Shown here in pieces: positions 4,148-23,926 of a stretch of 24,206 bases of DNA (positions are counted from its first letter, which is position 1; every line of letters begins with the position of its first letter). Location: NCBI GenBank assembly GCA_009602725.1, contig WELB01000408.1, positions 21,492 to 45,697 of the forward strand, given 5' to 3'. The notes beneath the pieces were generated by a model. It worked only from the letters and a program-made list of their open reading frames with translations, was not told where the DNA came from and ran no database searches. The translations under genes and the position numbers were made by a program. Source of the DNA: Spirogloea muscicola. Taxonomy: Eukaryota > Streptophyta > Zygnematophyceae > Spirogloeales > Spirogloeaceae.

Positions 4148-5926
4148 ATGGCTGCTTTGGCTTTGGCGGCACTGCCATATGTACTCTCGGGCACTAGCGT
4201 GGCGTCTCAGGCTGCATATTGGGTGCGAGAATGGTGGAAGTCTGGTCAGGTAGGAAGCACCTTGAAGTCTCTGCCTACGCTTAGTTCCCTTGGGCCATGG
4301 TGTCATCCAGGAGCTTGTCACCAAGAGCTCCAATACCTGGTGTGCTTATTTCTGTTGACCCTGCCCTCACAGATTGCAGACGAGGCATCGGTGGCCCCGT
4401 ACAGTGAACGAGCACGCAATGCTCAACTTATGGACCAACTTGAGAAAAGCAGGAACGCATCTGAGAAAGAGAAGGCCCACATACTCAATGAGCTGAAGAT
4501 CTCAAGCAAGAATCTTCAGAAACTTATGGACCTACTTGAGAAAAGCAGGGACGCATCTGAGACAGAGAAGGCCCGCATAAGCTATGAGCTAAGAATCACG
4601 CACGAAAAGCTTCAGCAAGCAGAAGAGGAGACGTGCAAGCTGGTTGAGGACTGTAAGCAGCAAATTGCAGAGGCAGTACAACAGGCGAGCACGGCTTTGA
4701 GCAAGTGGAAGACAGTCATCGCCCACAAGGCTCACCTGTCGGAGCCCCTGGAACTTCTGCAGGACCTGCAAGCTCGAATTCGAGCTTCTTTGCCACCTTA
4801 CAACCCAAAATGGCGGCATGTTGTCGTCATTGGATCTTCGGGCCTTGGAAAGACAACATTTGTGCGACAGATGCTGGACCAGCTGGATTACCCAGGTGCT
4901 GCATGTTAATGCATGACAGATGATGCGCTGAAGCGTGCAGTCTCTCCTGCCGATCATACTTGACGTTGATGCCTGCCGTCCATGTAGAGGGTTGCATGCT
5001 GGTACAAGCCTCAAGTCATGCTCTTCATTGTCAGTGCCTGTATTTATATATTTCAGGCAGCATGAATGGAGATCACCTTCGCACAAGCGCCAATGGTGCT
5101 GGAACCACTGGTGACTATGACTACGTCTTCGACAACAAGAATTTAACACTCACCGATTTGTAGGGACTGTGAAGAACAACTTTGCTAGCGGCAGGATACT
5201 GGCAGCCGACCTTGTCATCATGTTCCTCTCCGAAAACTGCAGAGCCGAGGAGCCACACGGAGATGCCTTAGCACTGGCCTATCGTCTCTGCAAAAGCATG
5301 TCCTACCTAAGATGGACCTTTGGATCAAGAATAATTACAAGGGGCCTGAGTAAGTAGTTTGTAAGTTTGCCTGTCATGGAACAAATGTGCACTGAGCAGT
5401 GTGCATGCATCTTTGGTGCAAGCACTCTGCAGGCTTGTTCTTATTTGGTGTTGTGATCTGCAGGGCTCGTATGCCTAGGATGTTATCTACTTTACTAGCA
5501 TGCTAGACCACTGCAGACGGCTACTCATCTACGTAACTGAAGACTGCAAGCAGTGGCACGTGACTGAGCTTGGACATTTGCTTATGCTGGTCATATACTT
5601 GCAGGCAACTGCTTGTGGAAGAAGAAGTCCTAGCGCGGGCCCACAGTAAGTTGGCTAAAGATCTCGTGGAAAAGCTAAGAGTCAGTGTGAATCAGAGCGT
5701 CGATCAATGCAACATCGAGATTGCGCCAGACTTGCAGGTTCTCATGCGGCTGGATGCAATTGAAAAGATCGACAAACTGAGGCCGATTATAGAGCTCCGG
5801 TGCTTCTTCAGCCAGAAGAACTATGACACTGGACACGAGGCCTACCCTAACTTGCTGCCAGGTGTTATGAAAGTGACCATGCAACAAGAGCGTCAAGCTC
5901 TTGTTGACTTGATCTGTGGCAAGTAG
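4148..5926 (+). pseudogene. Coiled-coil P-loop (GTPase-like) gene, copy 1, inactivated by two frameshifts
   Basis: Exons inferred by alignment with the copy at 17921 and by GT-AG sites: 4148-4249, 4373-4895, 5057-5349 and 5605-5926, with intron phases 0, 1 and 2. Exon 1 encodes 34 residues with a hydrophobic start and VASQAAYW. Exon 2 encodes a Glu/Lys-rich coiled coil and the P-loop GSSGLGKTT. Exon 3 should hold a DxxG motif, but one base is missing near 5158-5163, giving TAG at 5161. A further 13 bp are missing near 5306 relative to the sister copy. Exon 4 is open (107 codons including stop) and retains IEIAPDLQV and ERQALVDLIC. The conserved exon-4 reading frame suggests inactivation was not ancient, or that a shortened protein is made; the latter is less likely. 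Function unknown. Confidence 0.75.
4427..4618 (+). repeat. 96-bp in-frame tandem duplication in the coiled coil of copy 1
   Basis: Two adjacent 96-bp units (4427-4522 and 4523-4618) each encode 32 residues. They begin LMDQLEKSRNASEKEK and LMDLLEKSRDASETEK. Similarity is high over the first 60 bp and lower at the end. The sister gene at 17921 has no such doubling, so copy 1 gained it after the paralogs split. It would lengthen the predicted coiled coil by about 32 residues. Confidence 0.8.
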
Positions 5927-9030: not shown

Positions 9031-9785
9031 TTACTGGGGCCTCTGTGCAGTGGCCTTTGTCAGCATGGCCAAGGCCAGCTGCATGTCATGCAGCTCTGGG
9101 AGGCCCGCCGCAGGCTGGAGGTGCTCCTCAAGGCGGGCGCGCAGCTGCCCCTCCACGAAGGACGACGCACCCAGGAGGACCCCCAGGAGGGTGAAGCCGT
9201 CTGCAGGAGTCAGGCATCCGGGTGGCAGCGCCAGGGTGGATGGGAGGCCGCAGGCGGACCAGCCACGCACTTCGACGCCCGGGTGGACAGGCCGAGGGGA
9301 GGCCAGCTGCTGCTCGAAGGTGACGAAGGCCGCCGCCACACCCGCCAGGGGACCAAACAGGGTGGTGTCATCTGCGAACATGGGCAGCAGGACCCCTGCG
9401 TGTGCCGTCGCGGTGGCCTGCAAGGCCCGGTTGTGGGCAAGCGCAAAGAAGAACCTGGCGAGGGGGTCCCCTTGCCGCGCGCCCATCTGGGACTGCAGGA
9501 CCTCCACCTGGTCGGTCCCTGTCCTCCATACATAGAAGGTCGCTGCGCTGGCGGTACCTGAGGCCGGAAGAAGGGTAGCAGGGAGGGGAAGGCAGCCCGC
9601 AGCTCCTCGATGATGCTGTCGCGCCCCACGCTGTTGAAGGCATGCCGCACATCTACGGCCAGTACCATCCACTCTGGGTGCTGGTCCAAGGTTGCGCGGA
9701 TCCCGTTCAAGCAAGGCCTCGCCGCCACTCCGCAGCCCCGCGCCGTATCAGTGGGGCGCCAGGTGCATCTGCGCCTGCCCAGCAT
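9031..9785 (-). pseudogene. Reverse transcriptase catalytic region of LINE A
   Basis: RT synthesises element cDNA from its RNA. Motif A is visible as AVDVRHAFNSV, followed by the helix IIEELRAAFP, in the frame ending at 9210. After a frameshift at about 9580 the frame 9714-9031 carries GARQGDPLARFFFALAH (RT motif B) and FADDTTLFGP at 9378-9349 (motif C, the catalytic Asp pair). Then come the RT 3' region TLLGVLLGASSF and LALAMLTKATAQRPQ, alignable with element B. Catalytic residues are therefore present but split between frames. Confidence 0.75.
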
Positions 9786-15680: not shown

Positions 15681-16153
15681 GCAGCAAACGTTGTCCATCC
15701 CAAGCTTGCCTCCAGAAAGCCAATGACACTCAGAGACGTAGTGAAAGAACGGGCGACAGCGATTTTACCACATGCCGCTGTTGCGAGTTGTATGAAGGCA
15801 AAGCCCTACGCAGTAGGGCTCGCATTCCCTTAAGATCCTCCAGAGGCTTTGACAGGTGAGCCTTGTGGGCTGTCCCTGCTCTCCACTTTGTGATAGTCGT
15901 GCTCGCCTAGTGTTCGGCATGTTCAATCCGCCGTTCTGCCTCTGTAACTGAGACTCCTGAGCAATGGTACTGTGCACACAACCAGACAATTACAGATTGC
16001 ACCAGCGATGTGAACTTGACTTACTTTGGGCGGAGCCCTTGGCTTCAACTTGCATGTTACCTGGCTATAGTGCCACCACCACAATGCGCCATGAGACGCC
16101 AGGCCAGCTCCGGCCAGGGCCCCCGCCGCCAGGATGATCTGAAGTGCAGCCAT
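15681..16153 (-). pseudogene. Coiled-coil P-loop gene, copy 3: decayed antisense relic
   Basis: Exon 1 (16153-16061) is intact: 31 codons beginning MAALQIILAAGALAGAG, with LASHGALW matching LASQGAYW and VASQAAYW of the sisters. It ends in CAG before a GT donor, the same phase-0 boundary. An acceptor GTGCACAG lies near 15971. Exon 2 is shortened but recognisable: GAGGCAGAACG, GGCGAGCACG, CACAAGGCTCACCTGTC, and GCGGCATGTGGT (the RHVV site before the P-loop). Further on, GTCATTGG and CTTGGGATGGACAACGTTTG align to the P-loop region, but about 39 bp intervene and the lysine codon has become TGG. Exons 3 and 4 were not found. It is therefore a pseudogene. Confidence 0.7.
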
Positions 16154-16661
16154 ATTTAACAATTGAGCTGCCAGGCAGGCGGTAGAGTGAGCAGAACTGC
16201 GGACAGGTTTAGGACGGTAGACCGGCTGACATCCACATTGGGTGTGACTCGGAGCCTCTGATTGAAAGCCCGTGGAGTGCTTATCAAGTCCGGATGCGGT
16301 GGCTGTCACGGAAGCCCCGAGTGCAGAGGGGCCTGCGGCATCACGAGTCAAGGGGAGTGGCTGGCTACACTGATGCGAAGGATGCACTTCTCGAAGGAGG
16401 GCTGTGACTGGACTGTGTGCACACATGCGCCTCGGGACCTCATTGCGGCTTGCTGTTGGCAATGTCGTCGCAGAGCAGACCTGACGTGGTGGAGGTGGCC
16501 AGCGGCGGGCGCTAGCGGAGCGCTGGCGGGCAGCAGGCCCGGGGCGGCCAGCGGGCGGGCCGGGTGTTGTTGTGAGGCCAGCCGTGGGGGAGCAGGAGAC
16601 CGATGGGGAGAAGCGAGCGCGGAGTGATGGAGGGCCGGAGCGGCCAAGCACCCCGGGGGGG
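16154..16661. other. 5' flank of the relic paralog, then GC-rich spacer
   Basis: The first 90 bp (minus orientation, reading away from 16153) are homologous to the flank upstream of 4148, showing that the promoter/5' UTR was duplicated with the gene. The rest, G-rich from about 16490, has no supported gene. Confidence 0.45.
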
Positions 16662-16669
16662 GATTGTGG

Positions 16670-16967
16670 CTGGCGCAAGTGTATCGAATGCGCCTGGCCG
16701 TCTCGCTGCAGAGGTCCATGGCCCGGGCGCTGCACCTTCGTGCCGGCAGAGCCCTCGCTGCTGCCTCTGGCTCTGGCCAGGGGACCCACTTCCAGGAGCC
16801 CAGCATCTCTGATCTGCGGCTGCTTAGCAGGGGTTACTGAGTGTCTCGTAGCTGCTTTGTTTCTGTTACTTGGCGCTTCCCCTGGCCCCCTTCTCGTACT
16901 CTGTTCATTCTTTTTCGGGCTGGTTGTTCCAGCCCCTATTCTCAATGGGCGAGCACTTTCTTCTCTG
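16670..16967 (+). mobile_element. 298-bp 5'-truncated young RLE LINE with 8-bp target-site duplication
   Basis: GATTGTGG flanks the element (16662-16669 and 16968-16975). Inside, the frame reads YRMRLAVSLQRSMARALHLR and ends SDLRLLSRGY with TGA at 16838-16840. The UTR follows with a hairpin at 16918-16936 (GGGCTGG, TTGTT, CCAGCCC) and a TTTCTTCTCT tail. By eye, it differs at only three positions from the minus-strand copy at 12043-12345. The coding segment is identical, so the two are recent sisters and this subfamily moved recently. Confidence 0.85.
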
Positions 16968-16975
16968 ATTGTGGA

Positions 16976-17827
16976 GCGCCTCCAGCTCGGCTGGCGCCGA
17001 GATGGCGGGGGCGGGGAGCGGTGGCGGCGTGCGGCCGCCACAGCGCCACCCCACCTGCTGCGGCGCGGAGGCGGGCAGCTCGGCGGCCCCACGCAGCCAC
17101 TCAGTACGCGCCTGTGGGCTGACCTCACAGCCAGTGCCTTCAGATCGACAGAGCTGCTTCCCGGACCACCCGCAGGCGCAAGTCAAGGCTGACCCGCAGC
17201 AGCCGGGCCATGCGGGGCGGCCCCGGGGGGGGCATGGTTGCTCGGAAGCCGCCGCGGGCGGGTCAAACCGGCCCCGCCCGCCGGCGATCGGGCGCCCCGA
17301 CTGGCGGCGCGCCGCCGCCGGGCGTGGCGGTCCCCACCCGCCACCCGCCGCCGGAGCTCACTCTCCGGCCTGGCCTCCCAGTGCCCACATGAAGTCTGCA
17401 GCCGCGGCAGGCCCCCGGCCCCCTCTTGGCCGCTCCCCCCCCTCCTCTCGGTCGCGGCGCTTGCCGCTCCTGTGCGGCACCCACTCGGGCAGCGGGCTGT
17501 CAGCTCGCCGGGCCCTCGTCTGCCGGCGAGCACAGACATCCCCGGGCTCTCTCACGACCGTGCCTGCTCCTGCCACCTCGACGCCACAGGTCAGGACGTC
17601 GCTCTGCCCACTGACACATCCCCACTGCGGCTCTCAGATGACCTCCTCTGCACATGCCATGCGCCTCCTCTTCATAGCCATAAGCAAGGAGTGTGCACAT
17701 CTTCCTGCAAACTCCTCCCGCACCGCTACTGATTCAGCATAATCACACAGCAGCGGGCCTGCACAGGAGAATGCCGACCTACATGCTGTACACGTGATGC
17801 TCACAATATGATCCGCCGAGAATAGTG
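16976..17827. other. GC-rich region upstream of the intact P-loop gene
   Basis: No gene is supported. Long open frames on both strands (up to 257 codons at 16969-17742) come from very high GC between 17000 and 17560 and overlap one another without motifs. The last 250 bp drop in GC and probably contain the promoter of the gene at 17921; I cannot place a TATA box with confidence. Confidence 0.4.
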
Positions 17828-17867
17828 ATTGTGTGGGTGGGGCTCTTCTCAGCCCCACCCACACAAT
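17828..17867. promoter_or_regulatory. Perfect 17-bp inverted repeat 53 bp upstream of the start codon
   Basis: ATTGTGTGGGTGGGGCT (17828-17844), loop CTTCTC, and its exact complement (17851-17867). In the 5' UTR it would form a very stable RNA hairpin; in the promoter it would be a cruciform or a dyad binding site. Neither sister copy has it upstream. Function is not shown by the sequence. Confidence 0.6.
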
Positions 17868-17920: not shown

Positions 17921-19785
17921 ATGGGGCTACAAGACATCTTACCTTTAGTAAATCTAGGCATACAAGGAGTGAACCTGGCATCTCAGGGCGCATATTGGAT
18001 GAAGGAATGGTGGACCTCAAATGAGAGAACGGGTTTTGCACATAATAGCCAGGTCAGCAGGCAACTGCATCCGCTTTCTAGATTTTCAATTTGGTGTGCA
18101 TGAGTGGAGTCATCGTCTCCGCAATATTTTGACCACATTTTGCTGCTTCTAGTTCAGGAGGCCACTTCCACTAGACTATTGAAAATGCCCACCTGTGTGA
18201 TGACCACAACAAGGGCACGTCCCCTCTAGATTCAATGGGTGTTGCAGGTCTGACTCAGCAACTCACATGCAAGTGCAGGCCCAAGCGGCACCGAGGGACC
18301 TTAGGACACCTGAGGAATATCTCATCTTGGAGGGAAGAGCGAACCGCATCTCTAAACTGCTGGAAATCAGAGCAGCATCGATTGAGATAAGGGCCAACAT
18401 GGAAAAGGAGCTTCAGGATGTCAAGGACGAGCTCAAGAAAGCAGAAGAAGCGGCCAAGAACGTCAGACAATTGCTAATTCAATACCGACAACGAGTGGCT
18501 GAGGCAGAACGCCATGCGATCGAGGCTCGCAAGAAATGGAAGAAAGCCATCGATCACAAGGGCCACCTGTCACAGCCTCTAGAGGATCTACAACACTTGC
18601 AAGCTCAGTTACGTGCTAGTTTGCCACCTTGTGACCCGACATGGCGGCATGTTGTGATCATTGGACCTTCAGGTCTTGGAAAGACAAGCTTTGTTCGACA
18701 GATGCTGGAGGAGCTGCACTATGAAGGTGCTGTACGATGTCGTCCATGATGGGCTGGAGCATGCATAAATCCAGACATCTTCTCAAGAGCTGCTCGGAAG
18801 AGAGCCGGCTGTTGCGAGCAATTGCTTCCAACACAGCTCAATCATTTCTCATTATGGCCAGTCTTATGTGAAGTGCAGGGTGCATGGACGGGGATGAACT
18901 CCGAACAAGCTCCAGTTGCGCCGGCACGCTCGAACAACATGAATACTTCCTCGACAACCACAAGCTAGTGCTCATCGACTGTGTCGGCTCTGTCAGAAGC
19001 AATTTTGCCAATGGCATCATACTTGCTGCCAACCTAGTCATCATGTTCCTGTCAGAAAACTGCAGAGCTGAGGAGCCCCACGGCGAAGCTGTGGCACTTG
19101 CCTATCGTCTGCGTGCGAGCATGCAGTGTGCATTCATTCTTCCTAAGATGGACAACTGGATACGGAATTGGAGACCCGGCCAAGAGTAAGTTACTCGGAT
19201 GTCTAACCATAATCTCGCCACTATCTGACCTTTGCAACACGCTTGTGGGGGGATTCCTATGCGTGCCTTGTGTTGTCTATGGTTCTGTGAGCATGCGTTT
19301 TGCTTGATACTGTACCTTCCATGCTGGCTTCACTTGATCAAGGATATGTCCTAACTATCATCAAATGTCCCCAAAGAAGATGTCCAATTTTCCGCCAAGG
19401 ATTGAAAGAGTGCTGAACCATGCCAACCACTAAACTTGTATGCCTCCGATCTGGCAGGGTTTCCTCCTTGCCAAATGGAGAAGTGGTTCTTGCTTGTGCC
19501 CACAATGACATGGCCAAAGATCTCATTTTGAAACTAGATCAAGGAGTGGAAGAGAGCATCGAAAGCTTCTCCATTGAGATTGCGCCAGACTTGCAGGTCT
19601 TTCTGGATATGGCAGAAGATGCCAAAATCGAGCATCTGAACAAATTTGTCGGACTGCGGTGCTTTTTCAGCACAACCAACTACGACATTGGCCACTCTCG
19701 TTTCCCTCGTTCTTTGCCAGCTGTCCTGCAGGAAGCCATGGCAGATGAGCGACAAGCACTTGTGGACTTGATCTGCAAGCACTAG
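17921..19785 (+). CDS. Coiled-coil P-loop NTPase, GTPase-like, unknown family (intact copy 2)
   Basis: Four exons inferred: 17921-18052, 18279-18726, 18879-19185 and 19458-19785, all GT-AG, phases 0, 1 and 2, giving 404 residues. Residues 1-44 form a hydrophobic/amphipathic start with NLASQGAYWMKEWW, possibly membrane-associated. Residues about 60-140 are Glu/Lys/Arg-rich and heptad-like (coiled coil). The P-loop is GPSGLGKT at 173-180; a hydrophobic strand plus DCVG at 227-230 looks like a G3 or Walker B; PKMD at 282-285 is in the position of an NKxD-like G4. The C-terminal 108 residues hold IEIAPDLQV, VGLRCFFSTTNYD and ERQALVDLIC, all conserved in copy 1. The same exon borders in two paralogs support the model. 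A GTPase role is inferred from motifs only; a different P-loop NTPase is possible. The exon 2 acceptor at 18278 was chosen over CAG at 18247 because only it keeps the frame. Confidence 0.75.
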
Positions 19786-21716: not shown

Positions 21717-22166
21717 TCAGGAAAAATTGGGATGGTCCACCAGGCCGTGAAGAGCCTGTTGGAGTCTGGAGTCCACGGTAGAGTAGATGGCGCTTAGTGC
21801 AGAGGTGGGGGGTACAGTCCGCAACAAGTAAGTGGGACGCTGGGCCACACAGCGAGTGAGGATGGCCACCGCAAGCTGCGCGTCCTGTAAGGAGGAGAGG
21901 GACGGGAGGGCTTGGAGATGGTTCTCAGGTTGACTCCACAACTTGCTCCACATGCGCAGCAGCCCCCAACGGGGCTCCAAGCACCAACATGCCGAGTGGT
22001 GGGGTCCGGCACCCAGCCGGCAGCTTGATGGAGGGAGGGATGCCGGCTGGAGACCAGGCTGAACACTTCTCGGGCCGGATGTTGAGGCCAAGGATGTGAA
22101 GCTCGCGCTCCAACGTGCTGTAAGCGCTGGTGACTTAATTTGGGGGTCCCACCATGGTGGTGTCAT
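21717..22166 (-). pseudogene. RT 3' region of LINE B
   Basis: The frame carries LQDAQLAVAILTRCVAQRPT and LRTVPPTSALSAIYSTVDSRL, the alpha-helical segment after the RT catalytic core, matching 1600-1690 (+). Another frame over 22113-21925 holds LHILGLNIRPEKCSAW and TPPLGMLVLGAPLG, the expected thumb-side block. The two are separated by a frameshift near 21940. Confidence 0.65.
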
Positions 22167-22416
22167 CGGCGTAGCTTGGGATTAGCACAGCAGGGTGGGC
22201 CTCCGCCGTGTTACGAAGCGCCCATAGGTGTGCCAGTGCAAAGAGGAACCCACCCAGAGGGTCTCCCTGCCGGGTGCCTGTGCTGGATTGCAAGACCACC
22301 TGTGACGTGCCCGCTCCCCAAAGCAGGCGGGAGGGTGCTCGGTAGGAGCACCGGAAGAAAGGGATGAGGAAGAGAAAATGCGTGCGCAGCTCCTCCATGA
22401 TGACACCTCTGTCCAC
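22135..22416 (-). pseudogene. Reverse transcriptase motifs B and C of LINE B
   Basis: The frame has DRGVIMEELRTHF, then STGTRQGDPLGGFLFALAH (RT motif B) and YADDTTMVGP (motif C, YADD at 22173-22162). A stop follows near 22140. Upstream, motif A should read VDVxNAFNSV. The sequence GTGGAAGAATGCGTTTAAC keeps NAFNSV but has lost about 5 bp covering the catalytic Asp, which also shifts the frame. Confidence 0.75.
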
Positions 22417-22420
22417 GCTG

Positions 22421-23926
22421 TTAAACGCATTCTTCCACTGAGAGGGTCATCCAATCGGGATTGCAATCCAGGGCAAGATGTAGACCATTTACCACTGTCT
22501 CCGCACCCGCACACAGCCCTGCGCCAAACTGGTGGGGGGAGAAGTGGAGCTGCGCCTCCTCTCTGTTCTGCTGGAATAGGGTCTTTAAAACCAGTTGGGT
22601 AAGGACCTCGCCCATCGCAATTGGCTGGACGCCTCTGCAGGGCTTGGAGAGAGCGAGCAGGGTGCTGCTGGTGAGTGCCGCCCGGGCCTTAGGTGGGAGA
22701 AGGCCGCGCGCCACCGCTTGGCACACTTTGTGCAGCAGACTGAAGTCACCCGCCTCGTCGTCTAGCCAGAGCTCGCGAAGGTGTTCAAAGAGCATGCCCG
22801 AGGGCCCTCCAGCCGCTGCTTTCCGGCTCTGCACCAATGTTGTCCAAAGGGCTGCTGGGTTGAGGTCCACCAAGGTCGGGGGCTGGAATCCTCGAGCCAG
22901 GGGGGTAGGGGGCTTGGGGCAGGGGAGTGGAGGGTCCTGAGAGCAGCAAGGGTCTCTGCGTCGTGAGGTGCTGGGGTGGCTGGGTCCAGCTTGGGCAGCA
23001 CGGGAAAGGTCCCCTGCGCGGCCAAAACGAATGGCTCGTCGGACAGCTGAAGCCTCTGAGGTGGCTGGGGTGGGCTGATTCGCCTGGGACACCTGGACAG
23101 CTGCGCGATGCTCCTCCAGGAGCTGCTCCCATGCACCGCCCTCAAAACGCTGAGTCCTGGCTAGCATCACCGCGCGTTGGCTTGGACCACTTGGAAGGGG
23201 TCCCAGGACCAGGTGAGGGAGGAGCTGCCAGACAGTCCACGCAGCTTCGTCGAAGCTGTTCCGAGCCATCCGAGTGAGTATGGGCCGCGAGGCTCGCTGG
23301 ATGTGTGGCCGTGCCCAGTGGAGGATGTGCCGCAAGGTGAGCAGACTGGGTTCCAGCATGACCGCTTCTAGGTCCAGGAGCCATGCCCAACGCCACTGTG
23401 CCGGCGAGGGAGCTGGGGGAAGGGGTGCCGGGGCTGGGGTGCCGGGCCGCCGTCGTCGGGTAGCGGCCTCAGCGTTGGCTTCGGTCTGCTGCTTGGCTCG
23501 ATTGACCTTCTTGGAACAATGGCTCTTGTGCATGCAAACGCTCCGCAGGCTAGGCCAGGGCTGCTGGCAGTACTGGCAGGCTTGGGGTACAATCTGTAGC
23601 GGCAGGGCGTGTGGATGGAGCTGCTGCAGCTGCAGGGATAGCGGGAGTAGGAAGGAGAGGCGGGAGGGCTGAAGCTGGCGGGGGCTGGGGCGGACGACCC
23701 CTCCTGGGCCTGCTACTGGAACCACCTGTGCTTGAAGGAGCCACATCAGCGGCAGCGGCAGCAGAAGCGGCAACAGCAGCAACATCGGCAGCGGCAGCGG
23801 CAGTCGCCGGAATGGTGGCCATGGGAGGGGCAGTTGGAGGAGCAGGGGCCGCCAAGAGTGGGGTGGCTGTGGGGGCACCGTCAGGGGGCACGTCTGTGTC
23901 CTTGGGCGCACTTGCAGGGGGCACAT
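22421..23926 (-). pseudogene. LINE B N-terminal half: zinc finger to RT block 2
   Basis: A continuous 501-codon frame. The Pro/Leu/Ala-rich start is followed by the finger C-Q-Y-C, 12 residues, H-K-S-H-C (23578-23516), a basic stretch (TRRRRPG), and helical segments matching element A (AWEQLLEEHRAAVQ, RRAIRFGRAGDL). RT lead-in blocks are next: AAGGPSGMLFEHLRELWLD, LALSKPCRGVQPIAMGEVL, QFGAGLCAGAETV. It ends DWMTLSVEECV at the motif-A deletion. This is the best-preserved N-terminal half in the window. Whether translation starts at 23926 or further upstream is unclear. Confidence 0.75.

Follow-up and report, generated by a model that had tools for sequence, protein, structure and literature searches.

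A candidate coiled-coil GTPase-like gene family with P-loop-less homologues in the alga Spirogloea muscicola

A four-exon gene on contig C408

The stretch analysed here, called the window throughout, is 24,206 nucleotides long and covers bases 21492-45697 of the 45.7-kb contig C408 of Spirogloea muscicola; genome searches were run against the 153-Mb, 471-contig assembly. Positions 17921-19785 of the window carry a gene whose four exons, spliced in silico, join into one open frame of 404 residues with no internal stop, as a sequence-only reading of this DNA had proposed. Its introns of 226, 152 and 272 nt are all of the GT-AG type and lie in phases 0, 1 and 2. The three motifs named in the same reading are present and lie downstream of a long predicted helix. 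The features of this focal gene are as follows.

17921..18052, plus strand: exon 1, with the start codon and a mildly hydrophobic N-terminus containing ASQGAYWMKEWW; intron 1 follows in phase 0
18279..18726, plus strand: exon 2, an 84-residue predicted helix (coiled coil) and then the beta1/P-loop segment
18663..18686, plus strand: G1 / Walker A motif GPSGLGKT, residues 173-180
18879..19185, plus strand: exon 3, with the candidate switch I threonine T210, the G3-like DCVG and the G4-like PKMD
18977..18988, plus strand: G3-like DCVG, residues 227-230; DSAG or DSVG in relatives
19142..19153, plus strand: G4-like PKMD, residues 282-285, invariant in 4/4 aligned members
19458..19785, plus strand: exon 4, with an insertion, CFFSTTN (G5 candidate), a C-terminal stretch and the stop codon at 19783-19785

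The locus is a real gene, beyond what chance would produce, because its relatives keep the places and phases of the introns and because the codon-position differences among them fit a protein. At 17830-17865, 55 bp upstream of the start codon, two perfectly matching 15-bp arms (TGTGTGGGTGGGGCT...AGCCCCACCCACACA) form an inverted repeat around a loop of 6 bases; searched for as an exact pattern, with loops of 3-9 bases allowed, it occurs at this place only in the genome.

Other elements share the window. LINE-like reverse-transcriptase open reading frames (ORFs) occupy 9034-9747 and 22135-22446, both on the minus strand; a FADD/YADD motif is the mark of a reverse transcriptase, and the ORF at 9034-9747 has no Pfam match at 0.01. 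Around 1120-1434, repeats resembling TEPPRTQRR and AHTEPSRTQ are read in several frames, probably a low-complexity DNA repeat. No Rfam family reaches its gathering threshold in the window. Elsewhere in the genome, the chlorophyll a/b-binding family has 68 matches at the level of single exons; one such exon, compared with solved structures, returned first a 620-residue chain LHCI-2 (9vfj) and then many chlorophyll a-b binding proteins, some of them from moss, conifer and Chlamydomonas. These light-harvesting genes mark the host as a green-type phototroph.

Copies of the gene and selection on subfamily A

A tblastn search of the genome with the focal protein returned relatives on contigs C21 and C348 and elsewhere on C408. 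Genome searches place at least about nine loci in this group, here called subfamily A, at least six of them on C408; these counts, like those given below for subfamily B, are lower bounds drawn from the best-scoring candidates.

C408, 2.6-3.8k: subfamily A
C408, 10.1-11.1k: subfamily A
C408, 14.7-16.1k, minus strand: subfamily A
C408, 25.6-27.4k: subfamily A
C408, 37.2k, minus strand: subfamily A
C408, 39.4-41.3k: subfamily A, the focal gene
C21, 989.2-990.7k: subfamily A
C348: subfamily A, exons 3-4 only
C264, 4.4k: subfamily A, fragment

Two of these loci accompany the focal gene in the window (window coordinates).

4148-5926, plus strand: second copy, with the four-exon layout of the focal gene (4148-4249, 4373-4895, 5057-5349, 5605-5926; limits by eye)
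15766..15933, minus strand: third copy, a decayed exon 2 fragment, 44.6% over 56 residues with one stop
16061..16153, minus strand: exon-1-like hydrophobic peptide ending ...GLASHGALWWWHYSQ, within ORF 15923..17182, placed by eye; it probably belongs to the fragment copy

The claim that intron phases are preserved held up well. Introns 2 and 3 recur as GT-AG introns at the focal places and in phases 1 and 2 in the C21 member and in the copy at C408:2628-3772. By eye, a motif similar to ASQGAYWMKEWW with a phase-0 donor is seen again at 4148-4249 and in the copy at about 10.1k of C408, which gives intron 1 the same phase in both.

Three copies in 14 kb had also been reported, and three are indeed there; only the focal gene is intact among them, and it is the only complete subfamily A gene among the loci found. 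Compared with the C408:2.6k copy, the 4148-5926 copy is missing 1 nt and 13 nt in exon 3, which breaks the frame, so that it is probably a pseudogene. In the C21 gene the reading frame is open from exon 2 on, and the candidate frame for exon 1 has no start codon; the C408:2.6k copy is truncated at its 5' end by an assembly N, and in the C408:10k copy the P-loop is altered to GTSGVGMT and exon 3 contains a stop.

Codons were compared among four subfamily A members. Between the focal and C21 members the three codon positions differ 104/84/177 times (pN 0.26, pS 0.63), and across the six pairs pN/pS is 0.41, 0.41, 0.42, 0.42, 0.43 and 0.51, the three pairs with the focal gene all lying at 0.41-0.42. 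Third positions are the most altered, with dS of 0.66-1.35. Subfamily A has therefore been under purifying selection on the protein over a long time, and the high dS means that the duplications separating these four members are not recent. Conservation is uneven along the gene: between the 4148-5926 and C408:2.6k copies, exons 2 and 3 (87.3% and 85.4% identity) are more conserved than the introns (76.4% and 76.2%), and exon 4 (77.2%) resembles the introns. The sequence-only reading had spoken of an expanding family. Against this, most of the roughly six copies clustered here are decayed and a single complete gene was found among them, so that the cluster looks like birth and decay with no fresh expansion.

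Subfamily B, homologues without a P-loop

Searching with a weak match on C264 uncovered a second group of at least about six homologues, subfamily B, which brings the whole family to at least about 15 loci.

C264, 9.3-10.1k: subfamily B
C264, about 97k: subfamily B
C404, 16.3-17.2k: subfamily B
C21, 1046.9-1047.8k: subfamily B
C21, 986-987k: subfamily B, two loci

Aligned as profiles by hhalign, A and B (three of the six B loci) are homologous with a probability of 98.9% and an E-value of 2.2e-17, at 36% identity over 128 columns, and on both C21 and C264 no more than about 5 kb separates members of the two groups. The three B members compared keep DPSWRHVVVI and the phase-1 intron 2. They are without GKT and PKMD, and ETVG replaces DxxG. 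From this loss of motifs the B proteins are not expected to bind nucleotide. Pfam offers DUF6794 alone, in one of these three proteins (E 0.023). The similarity among C404:15000-19500, C21:1043500-1049500 and C264:7776-10997 extends outside the B genes, and whole segments bearing them therefore appear to have been duplicated.

These segments have diverged in an unusual manner. Between C404 and C21:1046k, noncoding identity is 95.6% upstream, 93.5% in intron 2, 93.2% in intron 3 and 93.9% downstream, compared with 80.4%, 90.4% and 84.9% in exons 2, 3 and 4, where the limits of exon 4 are approximate; with other limits, the three exons stand at 80.4, 89.5 and 86.1% and intron 3 at 91.4%. Exons 2 and 4, within the same approximate limits, differ at 156 of 882 positions against 59 of 1074 in introns and flanks (Fisher p=7e-18), a test that omits the intermediate exon 3 (27/282) and whose upstream part contains the putative first exon. 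Compared with C264, exons are 74-78% and introns plus flanks 85-90% identical. Within approximate exon limits, the two comparisons show 17 gaps in exons, 14 with a length divisible by three and the other three of a single base.

Substitution rates point to more than one possible cause. In exon 2 of the C404-C21 pair pN exceeds pS (0.231 and 0.131, one-sided p 0.016), pN about equals pS in the other two B pairs (p 0.43 in both), and no 45-codon window of B exon 2 is significant alone. Exon 3 (dN/dS 0.53-0.79) and exon 4 (0.74-0.85, on whole open frames) remain below 1. The exon 2 pS of 0.131 is itself above the divergence of introns and flanks in the C404-C21 pair, and exchange of exon segments between paralogues therefore fits as well as selection. 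The pattern suggests diversifying selection, exon exchange, or both, and is not proof of positive selection.

Motif anatomy and comparison with known families

Modelled by AlphaFold without an alignment, the exon 2 piece forms an 84-residue helix over residues 11-94 (block pLDDT 86-98 over 11-90), in line with a coiled coil, which leads into WRHVVIIGPSGLGKTSF; the P-loop part was modelled poorly, and exon 3 alone gave an uninformative all-helix model (pLDDT 50.8). The hydrophobic N-terminus described earlier is stronger in the other two window copies and mild in the focal one: the best Kyte-Doolittle 19-mer scores 1.62 and 1.88 in the former, 0.98 in the latter and, for the C408:10k copy, 0.28. 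Some copies may therefore have a membrane anchor, which is doubtful in the focal protein.

The candidate nucleotide-binding motifs recur among the aligned members. G1 (GxxxxGK[ST]) reads GPSGLGKT or GTSGLGKT in all three aligned subfamily A members having the exon. Among the four aligned members, G3 (DxxG) is D[CS][VA]G and the G4-like site is PKMD throughout, so that D227, G230, K283 and D285 are invariant; K and D of [NT]KxD are kept and P takes the first place. The aspartates of G3 and G4 are 58 residues apart, compared with about 62 in Ras. In the order G1-G3-G4 and in this spacing the family resembles the TRAFAC P-loop GTPases (MMR_HSR1 and relatives). It differs from them in scoring below the curated cut-off, in PKMD, in the distance of about 80 residues that separates G4 from the G5 candidate, and in its long N-terminal coiled coil.

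Searches for a known family agree with the earlier judgement that this coiled-coil P-loop family could not be assigned to one. Among the matches listed from Pfam, NCBIfam, PADLOC and PHROGs, none is above threshold. Those from NCBIfam are weak, as are those from PADLOC, where the P-loop or the coiled coil is covered (best 3e-4), and from PHROGs, where two of four members resemble a terminase family (best 0.0019) and one of four an ABC transporter family. In the PDB the best sequence matches (E 0.06 with the protein, 0.098 with the profile) are not significant. The C348 member, which has no P-loop exon, yields zero Pfam matches, and the profile signal therefore comes mainly from the P-loop. Viral and prokaryotic origins were also considered and rejected: no relative was found in IMG/VR (protein, profile), phages or GTDB contigs, collections that are viral, bacterial and archaeal, although the contig scans are seeded by short peptide patterns and can miss distant relatives. 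No description of the family was found in the literature covered, which excludes subscription journals.

The foremost alternative is an ATP-using P-loop protein, a signalling NTPase of the AAA, STAND or NACHT kind in which PKMD does not read the base. The best Pfam matches lean this way, with AAA_16 for the focal protein (8.1e-5), AAA_33 for the C21 member (1.4e-4), and AAA_22, nSTAND3 and NACHT also among the matches; AAA_16 and AAA_33 outscore MMR_HSR1 in these two members, although the P-loop region is what they cover. AAA_28 covers residues 12-131 of the 245-residue C21 stretch (E 0.0017), a length equal to that of MMR_HSR1. All these matches, however, are below their cut-offs and most end near Walker A, whereas MMR_HSR1 (E 0.0014-0.0046, 17.5-19.1 bits against a cut-off of 21.9) runs from G1 through G3 or further in all three members with a P-loop, which are three of the four members overall. 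The Walker B site, moreover, reads IDCVG, TDSAG or TDSVG (hhhhDxxG) in 4/4 members, not hhhhD[DE]. The MMR_HSR1 profile run against the genome at E <= 0.001 does not have the family loci among its matches listed. In the accessible part of a study of SpoIVA (PMC7952092), changes in G4 and G5 can accompany the switch of a TRAFAC protein to ATP, and PKMD is therefore to be read with caution. Overall, we consider an ATPase rather unlikely.

Septins were also weighed. The G1 core of the family resembles the septin P-loop core SGLGK[ST], and the septin G3 form DxPG is absent from it. According to the accessible part of PMC8640212, septin G1 is GxxGxGKS/T and a first G4 residue other than N/T is accepted, human septins reading A/GK/RAD; that of PMC11238149 states that algal septins may bear coiled coils and transmembrane segments. 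The family has in common with septins a G4 position whose first residue is neither N nor T, a coiled coil and possible membrane proximity. Its coiled coil, in contrast, precedes the G domain, and its match is limited to the P-loop: Pfam Septin gives the C21 member 14.4 bits against a cut-off of 26.2, over residues 12-34 only. A Septin profile search of the genome lists two other places, both below cut-off, and not the family loci. Septins are a useful analogy, membership is not supported, and we consider it very doubtful that this is a highly divergent septin or septin-like protein (paraseptin), a GTPase that associates with membranes, forms polymers and carries a coiled coil.

AIG1/GIMAP and Toc GTPases form gene clusters, and like this family they join a GTPase-like domain to a coiled coil or membrane segment. 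The 25 AIG1 matches listed in the genome, however, include none on the contigs of the family, and AIG1 is absent from the complete 20-family Pfam list of the C408:2.6k member. The genome holds AIG1-type GTPase genes in neighbouring pairs at C23:377-383k, C34:737-743k and C20:700-707k, which are perhaps Toc34-like.

That the genes are cargo or debris of retroelements and not a host family is highly improbable: LINE-like reverse-transcriptase ORFs crowd the window, with gene fragments among them, and the one at 9034-9747 has at least 150 genomic matches listed, itself included, of 1573 candidates, but the many family loci keep their introns and have been under purifying selection at high dS.

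Interpretation

We give a little better than an even chance to the reading that the focal gene, a protein-coding gene of the nucleus, belongs to an undescribed family of coiled-coil GTPase-like switches, with the nucleotide-free B homologues as partners or decoys. It builds on the gene model and its conservation, the purifying selection on A, the homology of A and B, the motif loss in B and the faster change of B exons. The expressed protein would consist of a short N-terminal exon product, sometimes hydrophobic, a long rod formed by the coiled coil and a divergent P-loop domain, the motifs of which (GxSGLGKT, DxxG, xKxD) follow the order seen in TRAFAC-type GTPases. Most likely, the rod would join subunits in pairs or larger sets, and the G domain would work as a switch loaded with GTP, perhaps close to a membrane. 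The B homologues, without P-loop and xKxD, may serve A as nucleotide-free partners, or as decoys, with quickly evolving surfaces. As no profile scores above its cut-off and the exon 3 model is uninformative, the GTPase reading draws on the order, conservation and spacing of the motifs rather than on a match to a profile or fold. The higher AAA scores and the PKMD form of G4 count against it, and the focal N-terminus, with no clear membrane segment, counts against a membrane role.

A more specific proposal is a two-armed system for self/non-self or parasite recognition, in which A GTPases would act with fast-diversifying pseudo-GTPases of subfamily B that sense a variable partner, similar to animal immune GTPases and of separate origin. 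We find this improbable as it stands, and an immune-type role is unproven. A role in recognition or conflict is nevertheless less arbitrary for a family with P-loop-less B members, because their coding exons diverge more than their introns.

If true, the coiled-coil switch reading would add a GTPase-like family not captured by current profile libraries. With it would come a sister group of pseudo-GTPases in which the coding exons change faster than the introns of the same genes, the pattern expected of genes in conflict or recognition.
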